This document shows positions 5,741 to 30,063 of a stretch of 64,000 bases of DNA, one piece after another. The first letter of the stretch is position 1. Each line of letters opens with the position of its first letter. The DNA is from Citrus sinensis. Taxonomy: Eukaryota; Streptophyta; Magnoliopsida; Sapindales; Rutaceae. The notes under the pieces are model-generated. The model was not told the origin of the DNA. It was given only the letters and a program-made list of their open reading frames with translations, and ran no database searches. The stretch lies in the NCBI RefSeq assembly GCF_022201045.2, contig NC_068559.1, forward strand, positions 26,543,501-26,607,500, read 5' to 3'. The position numbers and the translations under genes were made by a program.

Positions 5741-6355
5741 GGGTAATTTTAAAAAATCCCCCTGAGATTTGGGCTTGTTGCAAATAGATGACGAGAATCT
5801 GTTTATTTATAAAAAATTTCCTACCGTCAGTTAATTTTAATATTGACCGTTAGTTGACTATGCAAAGACAATATTACTCTTAACAACAGTTTGTAGACTG
5901 AAATAACTAAAAAAAAAAACTAAAATTATTGGCTATTTTACCCTCTTTAAATTATTGATATTTTCTTAAAGTTCCTACAAGAAAGATGAAATTAAAAACT
6001 TGAAAAATCCTCTTTAAATTATTGATATTTCCTTAAAGTTTCTACAAGAAAGATAAAATTAAAAACTTGAAAATGAAATAGTCATAATCTTTACCTATGA
6101 TATTGTAAATCTTTGGAATTGACAAGAATAAAATTGTCAAAAAATAAGGTTTGTGCTTTTCGCGCTAATAATTTTAGTTTTTTTTAGTTATGTCAGTCTA
6201 CAAACTGTTGTTAAGGACAATATTGTCTTTGCATAGTCAACTAACGATCAATGTTAAAATTAACTGATGATAGGAGTTTTTTTTATAAATAAACAGATTC
6301 TCGCAATCTACTTGCAATAAGCCCAAACCTCAGAAAAGGTTTTTAAAAATTACCC
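5741..6355. mobile_element. Mutator-like MITE with about 200-bp terminal inverted repeats
   Basis: The left end gggtaattttaaaaaatccc and its following sequence return as the reverse complement at the right end (ctgcaataagcccaaacctc... to attaccc). Matching blocks extend about 200 bases: the gggcttgttgcaa block, gagaatctgtttattta, gttagttgactatgcaaaga, caatatt, aacaacagtttgtagactga, and a poly-A/T stretch. Flanks are tatattttc (5732-5740) and tatcttttc (6356-6364), a 9-bp target duplication with one mismatch, as expected for Mutator-type insertion. The core holds a 67-bp tandem repeat and no transposase, so the element is non-autonomous. The arms could fold into a long hairpin transcript. Confidence 0.8.
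5942..6074. repeat. 67-bp tandem repeat, two copies, in the core of the MITE
   Basis: The unit starting cctctttaaattattgatat at 5942 restarts at 6009. Both copies continue through cttaaagtt, ctacaagaaagat and aaattaaaaacttgaaaa, with about four differences. It sits between the inverted arms of the surrounding MITE and separates them. Confidence 0.85.
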
Positions 6356-21481: not shown

Positions 21482-24400
21482 TCGAGATTAGGTGGTTGTT
21501 TTGCTATTTTTAATTAGTATTAATTACTATGGTTTTTGTGGTTCAAAAATTATGACTCTTTCGTAATTTTGTTTGACTATATACTTGTTTGCTGGAGCGT
21601 TTTAATTAAATGGTTATCTGTTTTAAATTTTAATTGATGAATCTTTTATGATTTCTGCTTGTTTTGTTTGTTATATAATTGATGTTATTGATTCTTGATT
21701 GGATGCATTGATCTATTCTGTTAATTTGATGGAATATTGTCTAGGATTTGAGTATTGTGGGGGAATAATTTAGTGGTAATTGATTTTCGTGTAGGAGTGC
21801 TATTCTACATACGAACAATTAAGTTGGAATTAAAGGACTAACGCTGGAAATTATTAAGAACTTTGTGGGTGGGTCAGAAGTTTTACACAAGAGTACTTAG
21901 AATCTGTTTTGAATTTAGTTGGATGCGTAAATTATTTTGGGAGTTTGAATTGATTATGTACATTTTTTTTCTCTGAAAACTGGTTGAGAGAAATGTTGAA
22001 AGGTAATTATGACTTTGTTTGAGGAAAGAGTTATTGGAAATGTCTTTAGTTTTCCCCTTTTTTCTCCGGAGATGGTTTAGCTAGATGCAGCTATATGTTC
22101 TTTTCTGGAAATGTTTTATGCTCTTATTTATGTTAATTATTGATGATATTGCTTTTCCCCCCTATAAAAGAATTTTACATTCTCTCGCATCTAATGGATA
22201 ATCATTCTTATGTTTTATGCTTTTATTGGCTGCTGCATACTCATCTTTGGGAAATGTCTGAGCTATCAATGAGTAGCTTCATTCCTTAGAATAGGGTTCT
22301 GTAGCAGGCAGCCCAGCGGCTGGCAGCTTTCCCAATCATGTTTTTTAATGTATGACCCAAACTGATCTTTATTATGGAGCTTCTGCTTGCCTCACTAGAG
22401 TTAGAGCTGGCTGTCATTTGCAATTTGAGAATTCATAATAGACTGCTTAATTAGGAGTATTGATATACCATGTTGCTTAATATCCTGGTGAGTTGTTTCA
22501 ATCCAGGACAAATTTGGGAAGCATAATTTGGACATATATCATTTTAAATGTTTTGATATATTTTGATTAGTATGTTGCAGAGATACAATTTCTCAATATA
22601 TGTATGAGTAGTGGGTTGAGATAATGAAAATGAAAGATCATGCATGATTGCTTTCCTAGTGTTGGATTTGGCCTAGTTGCAGTGTTCATAGTTTGAGATC
22701 TACATGGATTTTAGGTATTCTTTGAGCTGCTCTTAAGTGTATTATTCTCAACTGTTGGTGTTTGGTGTGCCATCGTGGATCATGTGTCCTTCATCCCCCA
22801 CCGTGCCCACACATGTTAATCTTCAACTCTGTTGGAAGTGGTTTTGTTGATTTGATAGCCATTTTGTTGGTTGCTTTCAACTCTGGAAGGTGGATGTTCA
22901 TTTTTCCATCATATTTGCAGATGGATATCTTCTTATAATAATCGTTGGATCTGAAATTCTTTCTGAATCATAATAATTAAGTAAAGGCTGATGTTACATG
23001 CTTCTTAATTAGTTGAATTTATTTACAAACCACCCTACCTTTGCTAATCAGGAAAATTTTATAGAACACCCATCAGAAAAAAAATATAAAACAACCCACA
23101 TCTGCAGGAATCAATGGCCTCTCTAGCCTCCCTGACCGGCAACTGCAAGCAGGCAATAGTGATTGTTAAGCTAGTTTACGGGACGCGAGAGTAATTGGGT
23201 TTGGCAGTGGCGGCATAACTGCTGGACCTGGACCGCTCTACTGGAGCTTACATCTCCTGAGGAAACTTGACCATGGACTCTATCATCTTCTTTTTCATTA
23301 AGCCTTCCATAGGTCACACTCTTTAAAAGTTTCGACAAGTAAAATATGACCAGAGTTTCCTGTTTTTAAGCAATAGACTCGAGGGACTAGTTTGCTACCA
23401 TCCAACTCCATCTGTTCAACAGATAACGGGTGGCGGGTTACACATTAATTAGTCACTCTCTAGAATTCTTCTCAATTTCAATGGATTAAAGGTGAGGTCT
23501 CAGTCTCAGTAGCTGGAGTAAGATTTGGAGAGACATTTATGAATGATAGAGGATAATTGCGATTTTCTATTTCAAAACTTTCAGCGTCGTTTTCTCCTTG
23601 TCCAGTTGTCCCAAATCAAGTGCTCCTGGCTCAATTTTTTACAAGCATTTTTAGGTAACATATTTTTTGGATTAGAAATCTGAATAGATTTGAATATTTT
23701 TAAATTTTGGATTAGAAATCTGAATAAATTTGAATATTTTTAAAATTTAAAAGGGTTTGAATTTCTTTTAAAGTTTGATATTTGAATATGAGTATTTAAC
23801 TAAAGTGTTTGTTTTTCTTTTTTTAATATTTGAATATAAGAGGTTTTTTTTTATAAATAAAGAACATTTTAACCGTAGTCATTTGACATTTATGTCTTTA
23901 CAAGTCAAAATAAAAAAATTAAATTTCATAGTTTAAAAAATAGATATATTTTATAAAGATAGTTTTATATATAATATTTATTTATTATCCAGATTTTTTT
24001 CTATTTAAATGAAAGTCACAAGTATGAGGCTATTTGAGGTTCTGGATCCACCAATTTTCTCTCTATACCTTTGTAATTAAGAATTTTATTATCTAAATAA
24101 TCTTTGAAAAATTACTTAATAAACTTTGCTTTCTCTTCTCAATTCCTCAAATTCTCATCAATTCATTCGAGTATATTTCTTTACTTGCAAATAATTGATA
24201 TTACTAACTGAAAAGAACAAAAACTAACCATTTAAAAATGAACATCAACAAATTTTTTATTAGTTATGAAAATAAATATCATGAAATTAATTTTTACTAA
24301 ACACAAAAGCTAGTAGACATCAAGAAAAAAAAATCCTTAGACATAGAAAACATGAACTAGAGATCGTGATATATTAAGAGAGATAAAAAAAAATAAAAAA

Positions 24401-24762
24401 GAGAGTGAAATTGAGTGTTTAATTTATAAAATATGAAAGTAGAGAGAGAATATGCAATTGTAAGATAAAAAGAGAGAGATTATTAAAGGGTAATTTTGAG
24501 ATCTTAAAATTTAAAAATTTTAATAATGAATTCAATTTTTAAAATGGGTGTATAAAAAATTTTGATAGGTTCAAATAGTCTCACCCCAATTGCAAAAGTT
24601 TAGTTTTTTTTTTTTTAATTCTAAATGTAAAAATATGAAAACCAAATATAAATTACAAAAAATTAATAATTTTTAAAAAAAATTGATAAAATTTAAATTT
24701 CATACATTTAACAAACAATCTCTTAGATAACTCAGTCGAGCATATTTCCATTTTTTACTTCT
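21482..24762. other. Intergenic stretch with a short tandem duplication, no supported gene
   Basis: The first few hundred bases are the 3' UTR of the ubiquitin-eS31 gene. A 40-bp unit (ttttggattagaaatctgaa...) is duplicated at 23665 and 23705. The 23.1-23.4 kb piece is less AT-rich and opens with a short ATG frame (MASLASLTGNCK...) that stops after 26 codons. It may be a worn gene fragment, but I cannot name its source. 23.6-24.7 kb is very AT-rich. Confidence 0.4.
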
Positions 24763-25489
24763 ATATAAAAAGAGAAATGCTAAAGGTCGGGAACGCTAAG
24801 AGAACACTGAAAGAAACGGCAAGTTGTGCTGCCGTTTCGTGTTCTCTCAGCTCCCCCCCCCCAACATGACTAAGAAAGCGAACCCCCACGTGAAAAAATA
24901 CTTCAGCTCAAGTCACTTTTGTCAAAAGCTGCCGTTTGGCCCCACACTCAAGTCACTTTTGCCAAGTGAATTCTGCCCCCCACATGAAAGTTTGGGTTAT
25001 CTCCTTGCTCATGACCAAGCAAAGCTAAGTTTGAGTTCTCTCCTTGCTCCTTCACTCGTTCACTTTTCCTTCGTTTCTCGTTCACTTATTTGCTCATCAC
25101 AAACCATCACAAACCCAGATAACTTGCTCCCATTAATTTCAAATATTAAACTGCTTTGTTGAGTTCTACAACCTGAAAGTACAATTCTTTTAACATTCTA
25201 ACAGCATCCTAGTTCACAGTTAGATATCATAAACAAATGTTAACATAGTTAATGCCAATCTTTATTCCATGAGAACTTAAAATATCCAAAAGAGATGCAT
25301 CTACCCTACATATCTATTTACACAACAAGTGTCCCTTCAATTCCAACAGAATATACATGCCTCTATCTTAAGATTTCATATGGCACTGAAATTCAAAATT
25401 TCGTCAACTGATAGAAGCCACCACACAATGGCAAAATATATATGTTTATTATCAAAGAACAGAAGGCATCATTTGAGCAAATTAAAGAG

Positions 25490-25534
25490 ACAACTATTCT
25501 CAGTCATTCTTCTTAATATGGGATAGACTTCTTG
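25490..25534 (+). repeat. Displaced 45-bp copy of the hydroxylase fragment
   Basis: These 45 bases (acaactattctcagtcattc...) match 26658-26702 with one substitution. In the downstream copy they encode the YNYSQSFFSIWDRLL segment in its normal place. Here they sit upstream of more N-terminal gene sequence, so the captured piece was rearranged. The join to ...tatcgtcatatcc runs through the shared bases ttcttg. Confidence 0.85.
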
Positions 25535-25538
25535 TATC

Positions 25539-26367
25539 TAGGGATGACAATTGGATCGTTTCATAATAGATATCCACAATATCCATCTAATTGGATCGGA
25601 TAATATCCATTCAAAATTTTTTGGATCTTGAAATGGATATTTTAAAATTATATCCAGATAGATATGGATGGATATGAATAATTATTTTTACCCAATGGAT
25701 ATCCGTTTAACCCAACACAAGTTTAAAAAGTTTTAATTTTATAAAATAAAAAATAAAAAATATAATAAACAAACAATTGTAAAAATATTATATTAACTAG
25801 TGAAAAATTTAAATTCCTCTTATATTAAAAACTAAAGTTTTCAAAATTACCCTTTAATTTTTTAACTTATTTAATACTATTAATAATTATTTTATTTTAT
25901 TAATTTAATATTATAAATGGACCTCCACCGGAATGTCGCCGGACCACCACCGGACATCGCCAGAATGTCACCGGACCACCATCGGATCTCGCCGGAAGGT
26001 CGCCGAAATACCGTCAGCTTCGCCGGAAGGTCGCCGGACCTTCGCTGGAATTCACCGGAAAGTTGCCGGACCTCTGCCACCGACCACTGAACCGCCATTT
26101 TATTTTATATAGATATTATTACTAATATAAATAATTTAATAGCCAAATTTGATATTGGAATTTTAACTATTTTATATTATTATTTTTATATAATAAAAAT
26201 AAAATATACATGGATATCTATGGATCTCCATAGCTATATGGATAAAATCCATATCCATGTCCAATATTAAATATTGGATATGGATATAGATATATCCATT
26301 ATGGATAATTATGGATTTGTATTTGGATGGATATTATCCATCCATAATTGGATATTTGTCATCCCTA
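25539..26367. mobile_element. hAT-type element, 829 bp, nested inside the Mutator-type element
   Basis: The termini are perfect 12-bp inverted repeats, tagggatgacaa and ttgtcatcccta. They are flanked by an exact 8-bp duplication, cttgtatc (25531-25538 and 26368-26375), characteristic of hAT insertion. Subterminal zones on both sides are dense in the word ggatat/atatcc and its palindrome ggatatcc, recalling a transposase-binding array. A GC-rich block (25919-26096) made of variants of cgccggaaggtcgccgga interrupts the AT-rich interior. No transposase is encoded. It inserted into the captured hydroxylase fragment and therefore arrived after the Mutator-type element had taken up that cargo. Confidence 0.9.
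25919..26096. repeat. CCGGA-rich short-repeat block within the hAT element
   Basis: About 180 bases built from irregular 9- to 21-base variants of tcgccggaaggtcgccgga / tcgccggaccacc, very GC-rich against AT-rich neighbours. It is open on the minus strand, but the predicted peptide is repetitive and looks fortuitous. Confidence 0.75.
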
Positions 26368-26368
26368 C

Positions 26369-26773
26369 TTGTATCGTCATATCCACTCTCAGCATCATCG
26401 GCTGGTTGTTCCTTATGCAATCGGTGCCCTTTACAATCACCCACTTGAGGGACTTTTGCTCGACACTTTGGGTGGAGCCCTCTATTTTCTTGTCTCGGGA
26501 ATGACTGCACGAACAACCGTGATATTTTTCTGCTTTGCTGTGATTAAAACTGTTGATGATCACTCTAGGCTTTGGTTGCCTGTCAATATCTTCCACTTGT
26601 TCTTCCAAAACAACACCGCTTATCACGATGTCCACCATCAACTTCAGGGCTTGAAGTACAACTATTCTCAGTCATTCTTCTCAATATGGGATAGACTTCT
26701 TGGAACTCACATGCCTTACCATCCAGTCAAGCTACCTGAAGGAGGTTTTGAGGCTCAGCTAAAGAAAGACTAG
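26369..26773 (+). pseudogene. Captured fragment of a sphingoid-base C4-hydroxylase (SBH) gene
   Basis: From TTG 26369 (LYRHIHSQHHRL) to TAG 26773 the frame is uninterrupted for 134 codons. It gives the C-terminal half of a plant sphinganine C4-monooxygenase of the fatty-acid-hydroxylase superfamily. Two histidine clusters expected of the di-iron centre are present (HIHSQHH and HDVHHQ), along with NHPLEGLLLDTLGG, NIFHLFFQNNTAYHD and SIWDRLLGTHMPYH. The N-terminal half, including the first histidine box and leading membrane segments, is absent. The open frame continues upstream into the hAT terminus, but no suitable ATG exists there. It lies wholly inside the Mutator-type element, so I read it as transduplicated cargo rather than a working gene. 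The intact frame suggests recent capture or retained constraint. Confidence 0.85.
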
Positions 26774-26927
26774 ATGCTATTAAGACAATTTGACTGTATC
26801 ATAAATTAATTATTAAAATAATTATCAACAATACAATTACCAAAATAATTGTGGGAGTTGGAGTTCATGTGGGAGTGCTGGAGAAGGAGTTGAAAATAAA
26901 AAGGAAAAGGAGTTGAGAGGGAGTGAA

Positions 26928-27010
26928 GGAGTGCTGGAACGGATTTGTTAAAAGCGAAGAAGGAATAAGGAGTGCTGGAACGGATCTGTTGAAAGCGAAG
27001 AAGGAAGTGG
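26928..27010. repeat. 41-bp tandem repeat, two copies
   Basis: ggagtgctggaacggat starts at 26928 and again at 26969, each followed by a closely similar tail (tgttaaaagcgaagaagga / ctgttgaaagcgaagaagga). It belongs to the right subterminal zone of the Mutator-type element. Confidence 0.8.
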
Positions 27011-27164
27011 AAGAAGGAAAATGATTTGAAAGTCACATGGGGGACAAATATTTGTTACTCATGTGGGGGGTGAGGGAGGTGAGAGAACGAAACGGCAGCA
27101 CAAGCTGCCGTTTCTCTCAGCGTTCTCTTAGGATTCCCGATGTTTAGCAGCACTCATATAAAAA

Positions 27165-29880
27165 TTCTCCTAACTTGAGGGTGATTGTGTGGCTATTAAC
27201 AAAAAGGTGGGCATGGTTCTTCCACTAGCTGGTGTGTGTGAAGTAACGAATGAAACAAAAGACGAAAGAAATTATACCGCTAGTAATGCAGCGCTTCGAT
27301 AATAATGCACAAGGAATATGCCACACAGTTTTAATACAAATGTTATGTACCCAAGTTTACAAGAGTGGCATCACTCTTTTACTACATAGGTTGTCTTGCT
27401 TTCCTTATGACAACTGAGGCGTGGTTTGGTTTTTACATTTGGCAGCTTAGTTACTGAATCTCTAAGCTGCATACTGAAACAAAAATAAGCTCCACAACTA
27501 CAAGTGATAAGAAATTATTGTTATGCAATGGTTAGTGATGTTGTTTAACAATCAGATGTGTTCGTTAGATACCCATAAACAAATGAGAAATAAGTTTTAT
27601 CCGAGAGCCTTATAAACTTCCTCTTAACAATTAGAGCTTCTATTTCACTACAATTGTTTCTTAAAAATCTAGAACCAGATGTTGCCTTAATTACACTATA
27701 AAAGAACACTATAATCGTTTGCAAATGATATCCAGCCCAAATGTTGACAGAGTGAGGCATTAAAAATGGCACCTCTATGGTGTTGCTCTGACATCCTCTA
27801 TCAGTATTTAAATCCAAATACTGAAACATAGGCATCGAAACGACACTCTTATGGTGCCGCTATGGTCGCCTCTCCATCAGCCTTTGGGCTGAATAGCACT
27901 CATAATAGTTTCATGTATACTTACTTAATAATATTATGGGTGCGTTTAGCACACTTTATTATATTATGTTATATTACATTATTTTAATATTGGTGTATTA
28001 TATTATATTGTATTGCATTAGCACTGTATTATAATAATTATTTTTGTGATTAACTTAAATTATATATTTAGAAAATAATAGTTATTAGTAACTAGAAAAA
28101 TACAAAATATAGAAGTCTTAAATTTTAGAAATTTAACATTATTTTTTAGTATAAATATTAAAAAAATAATTTTTCCATAAAGATTGAAGCTTATAGCCTT
28201 ATAATCGACAACATAACATTTATTTTAAATTAATATTATTTAAATTTATTCGTATATAAATATTTTTATTAATTATATTAAATTTTTATAGATTAATTAC
28301 CATAATATAATTAAATAATTTAATATCAAGTTATATTCTTATTTTTATATATTATTTAAGTACTTATTAATCAATTTGATATATTAATTATTACATAATT
28401 AAATAATACATTATTTAGTAATATTTTTAATATAATAAAAATTAAAAATATGATTAATAAATTATTAATTTATATTAATAATTATGATATAAAAATACAA
28501 GAAAATAAAAATTAATATTAAAAAGTTATATTATTTATTATTATTAAAAAAAAGCAAAAGCAAAAGTTAAAAAAAGAAGAAGCAGCAGCAAATACAATGT
28601 ACGAAACAAGCCCCATATGCATCATTGCATTGTGAAAATTACTCAATATTATGGAAAATTAAACCTCCCTCTTTCCTCAAACATAGATTATATCTTATCA
28701 TTGGTGTTCTTCATAATCATACCGCAACTTCATTAGGACCAGAACAGACATTGAACCACAAGCCTTAGATGATGAAATTACAACTGACAACTGGTTCAAG
28801 TTCGAGGTGAAAGATGAGTATATGATGTGAAAACTTACTAAAAATATATGATAAAATTTGTCAGCGTATTCTGATACCTCCCAACCGGACCGGTCACAAG
28901 TATTTTTCCCATCAAACTTCAAATTCAGTACAAGTGGTCCTTCTTGGTTCCAGGCTACCAGCTGGTCCCTTCTACGCATACAGGATGACAGTGGCACTAG
29001 CTAGGATCGGCCCCGTTGGACTTGGATATAAGCAATAACACTTAATCAAGCTGATTATGGGCATGGGAAATTGAGATTACGTTGATGTACTTTTTGTGCT
29101 ATTATGTTCACTAATTTGGAATCAACACAATCATTACTGTCAGTCTCTTCAACATGTAGACTATGTGCAATTTAGTCATTTTTGCATCACAGTACATCTT
29201 CATCTAAGTGTCATTTTTTGAGCTTTTCAACCGTGGGGAGCCTGGAAAATTTAGCTTTTTTTCACATGCATGCACATGGGTAAAGGCTAAGACTTAATAA
29301 AAGAGTCAACAATCAGAGGCAACGAAAATGGGAAAAAGTAAATGCTTGCATTAAGAGCAGTGAGCTCCGAAGTGAAAAATAAACATGAACGGAGATCTCA
29401 TATGGTCAATTAATTTTACTCTGTTTCAGGAAAGACAAATCCTAAGATGCCACTTTACCTTCTCTATACACCTTTCCAGAAGTTTCCCCATTCCTCCAAA
29501 ATGGTAAAAACTTACCGCACTTTCACTTTCATGTTAGAAATAGAGGGCTCAAAGAGATAGGTGGAGTAAATGAGTTAGAAAACAACACATGAAACAAATA
29601 GGCACTAGTCCTTTTCTTCACTTGCTGTCTTTCAGCATTGAATTTTTTGCAAACCCCCAAGTGTTTGATAATTTTCATCATTTTAGAGTACGAAGGGTAA
29701 ATAATTAACTTCGTTCGCTCGTTGGAGTTACCAGAGCCTAAAACATTCCCAAATCAATAGAAGTAGTTGTTTTTTGGGTAAATAACAACAATAAGTGCAG
29801 TCCATTTTGGGATAATTAGAAGGAGATTTGTAAAAAGATCTAAATGATCCATTATTATTAAGTCATGTAGTACTCTACTC
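27165..29880. other. Intergenic stretch, no supported gene
   Basis: 27.9-28.6 kb is extremely AT-rich and begins with ttatgggtgcgtttagcaca, which resembles a MITE end, but I could not find a matching right end. A minus frame at 28698-28997 contains MRRRDQLVAWNQEGPLV and CDRSGWEVSEYADKFYH. These are non-repetitive, protein-like residues ending at a possible donor (gtaagt). I do not recognise the family; it may be an isolated exon or a gene fragment. Confidence 0.35.
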
Positions 29881-29887
29881 TAACATC

Positions 29888-29960
29888 TATAAATCTCTCT
29901 TCAATGACAAGACCCCCATCCTTTTTCTCTCATTGTCTTTTGTTGGTGGCCCTTTCTCTG

Positions 29961-29996
<36 letters not shown>

Positions 29997-30063
29997 TCTG
30001 TGTCTCCCTTTTGATCTTTCAGACAAGTAATTAACCGATCGTCATCATCAAGCAAAACACAGC
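29888..30063 (+). promoter_or_regulatory. Core promoter and CT-rich leader of the INO-type gene
   Basis: A TATA box tataaa lies at 29888-29893. The leader region holds a long (CT)n/(TCTG)n tract at about 29955-30007, before the ATG at 30064. GA/CT repeats are the known binding sites of BASIC PENTACYSTEINE proteins, and BPC1 was identified through GA-rich elements of the Arabidopsis INO promoter. The same control here is inference. Confidence 0.6.

Follow-up and report, generated by a model that had tools for sequence, protein, structure and literature searches.

The segment 24772-27155 of the 64-kb stretch of DNA analysed here (the window) has the structure of a Pack-MULE, a non-autonomous Mutator-like element that carries part of a captured gene, a class assignment that is well supported by the sequence. 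Its 2.4 kb preserve a readable record of a single capture, in which two gene pieces were joined out of order and then interrupted by a nested insertion. We consider it very probable that a Pack-MULE took the 3' coding part of a hydroxylase gene, switched templates in doing so, inserted at this locus and later received a hAT-type element, the fragment itself being likely functionless. A Pack-MULE-like build with a captured, rearranged hydroxylase fragment had been proposed in a preliminary description and agrees with the terminal inverted repeats (TIRs), the target duplication, the PF04116 match and a displaced 45-bp piece found here. The 829-bp nested hAT-type element, the scrambled junction at the 45-bp piece and the stem-loops within the TIRs were absent from that description.

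The window has a G+C content of 34.8% and resembles plant nuclear DNA. Five of the ten window open reading frames (ORFs) in one Pfam comparison matched a family: ubiquitin-ribosomal protein S27a, a CRM-domain protein, a RING-finger protein, a 672-residue PPR protein and a C48 peptidase. A fragment of Ulp1-type peptidase C48 lies at 942-1331 (PF02902, 60.8 bits); since ULP domains are described in plant MULEs and CACTA elements in the available part of PMC2528002, it may mark another transposon near the window edge. At 5747-6348, a long imperfect inverted repeat of about 600 bp has arms of 106 nt (91%) and 70 nt (84%) and is MITE-like. The sequence TTTTAAAAA is present at both of its edges; as this sequence is itself close to a palindrome and falls mostly inside the arms, it does not clearly qualify as a target duplication.

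The 9-bp sequence ATATAAAAA occurs exactly at 24763-24771 and at 27156-27164 and adjoins both ends of the element, as the preliminary description had it. Its length falls within the 9-11 bp given for MULE target-site duplications in PMC3310237, which, in its available part, also gives TIRs of typically 100-500 bp and, for a tomato TIR library, thresholds of at least 100 bp and at least 80% identity. A 9-mer match between random position pairs in the window has a frequency of 3.2e-5, a figure that ignores one to two bases of sliding freedom. The left TIR (24772-24877, plus) and the right TIR (27051-27155, minus) align from the seventh base inwards, with 81% identity across 86 nt without gaps and 84% over 101 columns with gaps (E 2.8e-25), which places them narrowly within the length and identity range of MULE ends. 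Compared without gaps from the very tip, 66 of 85 positions match (78%) and three of the six outermost bases differ. The inverted ends of about 85 bp reported earlier are confirmed. The weaker agreement from the tip is what could be cited for a plain hydroxylase pseudogene that is flanked by chance inverted repeats and has no transposon around it, a reading for which no support was found. The E value of the ends together with the exact adjoining duplication make it extremely improbable, and so does the TIR core pattern, which occurs twice in the window versus 0.00 on average across 100 shuffled sequences, the pattern having been built to fit both ends.

Further copies of the inverted ends were not found within the 64-kb window. 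The two ends of this Mutator-like element diverge by about 16% in the gapped alignment and by 22% in the ungapped comparison from the tip, and the element, if its ends were identical at first, may therefore predate what the captured frame suggests. MULE ends are not necessarily identical at their origin. Inverted 14-mer seeds number 12 in 22000-30000 versus a mean of 0.92 and a maximum of 6 in 100 first-order random sequences; this count was dropped as evidence for the ends, since it spans the whole of 22000-30000 and not the two ends only.

The region 24000-28000 contains 11 ORFs of at least 60 amino acids, ten of which were compared with Pfam (26334-26543 on the minus strand was left out), and none of these ten matched a transposase family. 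Likewise, no MULE transposase was found among 20 window ORFs run against Pfam, which are part of the ORFs of the window. Matches below the cut-off (APP_E2 at 4e-4, VasL, PIK3CG_ABD and DUF2427) were discarded as chance.

The captured gene piece occupies 26369-26773 on the plus strand and translates into 134 residues followed by a stop, in agreement with the open piece of a host enzyme noted before. It matches the Pfam family FA_hydroxylase (PF04116) with 67.7 bits (cut-off 31) at profile positions 25-132 of 132, and thus represents the host-gene fragment expected of a Pack-MULE. Enzymes of the fatty acid hydroxylase family carry three histidine boxes. Two of HxxHH type, HSQHH and HDVHH, are present, as already described; an HxxxH at residue 114 (HMPYH) is found beyond the last box, out of alignment with the first one. 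Profile positions before 25 are absent from the fragment and its N-terminal part is missing. The first histidine box would presumably fall into this missing part of the profile, HRYMH preceding the captured stretch in Arabidopsis SBH1. With HSQHH and HDVHH only, the fragment falls short of the three boxes of a working sphingoid-base hydroxylase.

Aligned without gaps to a provisional sequence of Arabidopsis SBH1, the fragment is identical at 94 of 134 positions, starting from residue 123. With this comparison as a lead, the parent was probably a sphingoid-base hydroxylase within the fatty acid hydroxylase family. The earlier identification as a sphingoid-base C4-hydroxylase thus holds for the family, on the Pfam match, and is a lead as regards the exact name, which comes from the SBH1 comparison. 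At two positions where the provisional SBH1 sequence has Gly, the fragment has Arg and Val, which may hint at decay. NCBIfam gave no match, and three matches among solved structures (ribosomal proteins and an antibody chain; E 0.8-0.95) were dismissed as chance. Comparisons with microbial sequences are uninformative for a plant gene or a plant element: no relative of the fragment was found in a phage collection, none of the 13 stretches in viral contigs and none of the 133 stretches in prokaryote contigs that fit the fragment's peptide pattern was confirmed, and the TIR pattern was absent from the viral and prokaryote contigs.

A second piece of the hydroxylase gene, 45 bp long, lies at 25490-25534 on the plus strand and is 97.8% identical to 26658-26702. 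It is separated from the main fragment by an 829-bp nested element (25539-26367) with ends TAGGGATGACAA and TTGTCATCCCTA, flanked by the 8-bp duplication CTTGTATC at 25531-25538 and 26368-26375. An 8-bp duplication and short inverted ends of the TAGGG type are the marks of hAT elements. Both are present here, the ends being 12-bp perfect inverted repeats of the TAGGG type, and the nested sequence would thus be a non-autonomous hAT-type element, a class assigned from its ends and duplication alone. Part of the scrambling is accounted for by this second transposon. The three ORFs wholly within it that were compared with Pfam matched no family. GC-rich 32-bp tandem repeats at 25931-26040 stand out in its otherwise AT-rich sequence; its weak matches elsewhere in the window (e.g. 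7510-7446, 77%) were rejected as low-complexity, AT-rich sites.

When the nested element is removed and the empty site is read through, the 45-bp piece is located directly upstream of the main fragment. Its source lies close to the 3' terminus of the coding sequence, yet the piece stands before an earlier part of the gene. Because the two pieces share one orientation, they cannot pair with one another as a hairpin. In the joined reading, a stop occurs six codons ahead of LYRHIH, and the frame barely extends into the displaced piece. The displaced piece ends in CTTCTTG and the main fragment starts with (C)TTGTATCG. The two templates would have three to six bases in common, the number being set by the codon that the parent uses for the presumed Phe just before. 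A scrambled junction of this kind is as expected of template switching. The left CTTGTATC comes after the displaced piece yet has the main fragment's TATC as its last four bases, and we infer that the junction is older than the hAT-type insertion. Similar captures are described in animals in the available part of PMC8277862, where 67.6% of the examined Pack-TIRs have microhomology at one breakpoint at least, explained by template switching in gap filling.

The preliminary description took the open frame as a sign that the capture was recent or that the fragment is constrained. The frame from stop to stop covers 26348-26773, its first seven codons belonging to the nested hAT-type element, and the first in-frame ATG occurs only at codon 45; the fragment alone could therefore yield no more than 90 residues, with a single HxxHH box. 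Of random changes in the frame, about 4% would create a stop (transitions weighted twofold). The single difference per 45 bp between the duplicated pieces corresponds to approximately 0.011 changes at each site in each copy, subject to a very wide error. At this value, a neutral frame would survive with a probability of 0.84 if only stops are counted and of 0.51 if indels are included in an assumed model (0.14 indels per substitution, four fifths of them frameshifting); at 0.05 the corresponding values are 0.45 and 0.05. Because neutral survival at 0.011 is about half or more, a recent capture suffices and the open frame is no evidence of constraint. The first of the two proposed explanations is thus adequate, and the second is left without support.

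A further idea, of which the preliminary description named regulatory RNA against the parent gene, is that the fragment is functional, with a putative TIR-driven transcript that would give rise to a short protein or to small RNAs acting on the parental hydroxylase. Its 134 open codons and its two histidine boxes can be read in this way. The late in-frame ATG, the missing profile before position 25 with, presumably, the first histidine box, the hAT-type element lying between the frame and the left end, the neutral survival already calculated at 0.011 and the common direction of the hydroxylase pieces, which precludes a hairpin between them, all argue otherwise, and we regard such a function as very unlikely. 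The sequence has given no sign so far of any activity of the fragment, which fits best with a decaying pseudogene.

The remaining internal sequence of the element falls into two parts. The left part, 24878-25489, consists of short repeats followed by an AT-rich region; it has self matches only, within the window, and two ORFs in it gave nothing above the curated Pfam cut-off. On the minus strand of the AT-rich region 25100-25489, the sequence, read by eye, resembles the end of an intron with a short terminal exon after it, and a second captured gene is possible there. The right part, 26774-27050, holds a 41-bp direct tandem repeat in two copies at 26926-27006 (95% identity).

Each TIR contains an internal stem-loop, represented in the left one by GAAACGGCA...TGCCGTTTC. 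Both ends fold into strong hairpins (left, 24772-24870, z -5.15; right, 27057-27155, z -4.07), and in neither case did any of 200 shuffled sequences fold as well. The palindrome AAACGGCA...TGCCGTTT with an outer GAGAAC/GTTCTC stem is located at 24795-24851 in the left TIR and at about 27081-27129 in the right one. The stems differ at two pairs (AGAGAACAC/GTGTTCTCT on the left versus AGAGAAC/GTTCTCT on the right), a difference that presents no clear compensatory change. A scan for bacterial-type signals in 24772-25500, irrelevant to a plant, counted one promoter-like site (1.5 expected) and one terminator-like site (0.4 expected), the latter being the left-end stem-loop itself. Rfam gave no match at the gathering score over 24500-27500.

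These stem-loops merit a look because PMC4858842, in the part available, presents models in which gaps at stem-loops take in new sequence when they are repaired; two sequences are too few for a stronger claim. We may speculate that the stem-loops take part in gene pick-up, with stalled synthesis or exposed single strands leading to a template switch and the palindrome therefore being retained at both ends, a proposal that we hold to be very doubtful. If the host has a family of such elements, their ends would offer material for testing stem-loop models of capture by MULEs.

The sequence itself shows the two sets of ends with their duplications, the family match, the duplicated piece and the nested insertion; capture by template switching, mobilisation in trans and the absence of function are inferred. 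Taken in order, the history of the locus was very probably as follows. A non-autonomous Mutator-like element would have picked up the 3' part of the coding sequence of a plant gene of the fatty-acid-hydroxylase family, most likely one for a sphingoid-base hydroxylase. Repair synthesis would have copied two non-contiguous stretches of this gene, the 45-bp piece and then the stretch through the stop codon, and these would have been joined via a few bases of common sequence. A transposase acting in trans could then have inserted the element here, generating the 9-bp duplication, and a hAT-type element later entered the scrambled junction, generating the 8-bp duplication. The mobility and the origin of the element are, in this proposal, drawn from one locus. 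A variant of the same explanation places the capture at the present site: a resident MULE was broken, the gap was filled from the hydroxylase gene, and the version with the hydroxylase piece never moved. Most single-copy animal cases are explained in this manner in PMC8277862, as far as its available part goes, and the lack of an element copy elsewhere in the 64-kb window, a weak test, agrees with it. No observation at this locus separates capture in place from capture preceding insertion, and we retain the former as a possible but less favoured course of events.

The element adds one new example of an ordinary, well-known process that is common in plants. In the open-access literature, as far as the searched words reach, no paper was found that names this hydroxylase in a Pack-MULE or a Mutator-like capture of a sphingolipid hydroxylase, and SBH combined with intron terms likewise retrieved none. 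Among the titles and abstract beginnings retrieved with the string AGGGATGACAA, or with AAACGGCAGC and transposition, none concerned a similar transposon.

With known Pack-MULEs, the element has in common the long inverted ends, the 9-bp duplication, the host gene fragment, the scrambled pieces and the lack of a transposase family in the tested ORFs. It differs in that a single copy is seen, that a strong stem-loop is present in each end and that its captured part is split by a nested hAT-type element; it is still of the same kind. The transduplicating transposons of grapevine (PMC2528002) are similar in that plant MULEs and other cut-and-paste elements capture intronic and exonic gene fragments, whereas the available part of that source names other genes, such as one for a putative cellulose synthase, and does not mention a hydroxylase. 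The nested element, for its part, is similar to non-autonomous hAT elements in its 8-bp duplication and short TAGGG-type inverted ends. As to the captured gene, the fragment resembles plant SBH1 and SBH2 in its FA_hydroxylase match and in its gap-free identity to the provisional Arabidopsis SBH1 sequence; unlike them, it comprises the C-terminal half only, devoid of its own start codon, of the N-terminal part and presumably of the first histidine box.
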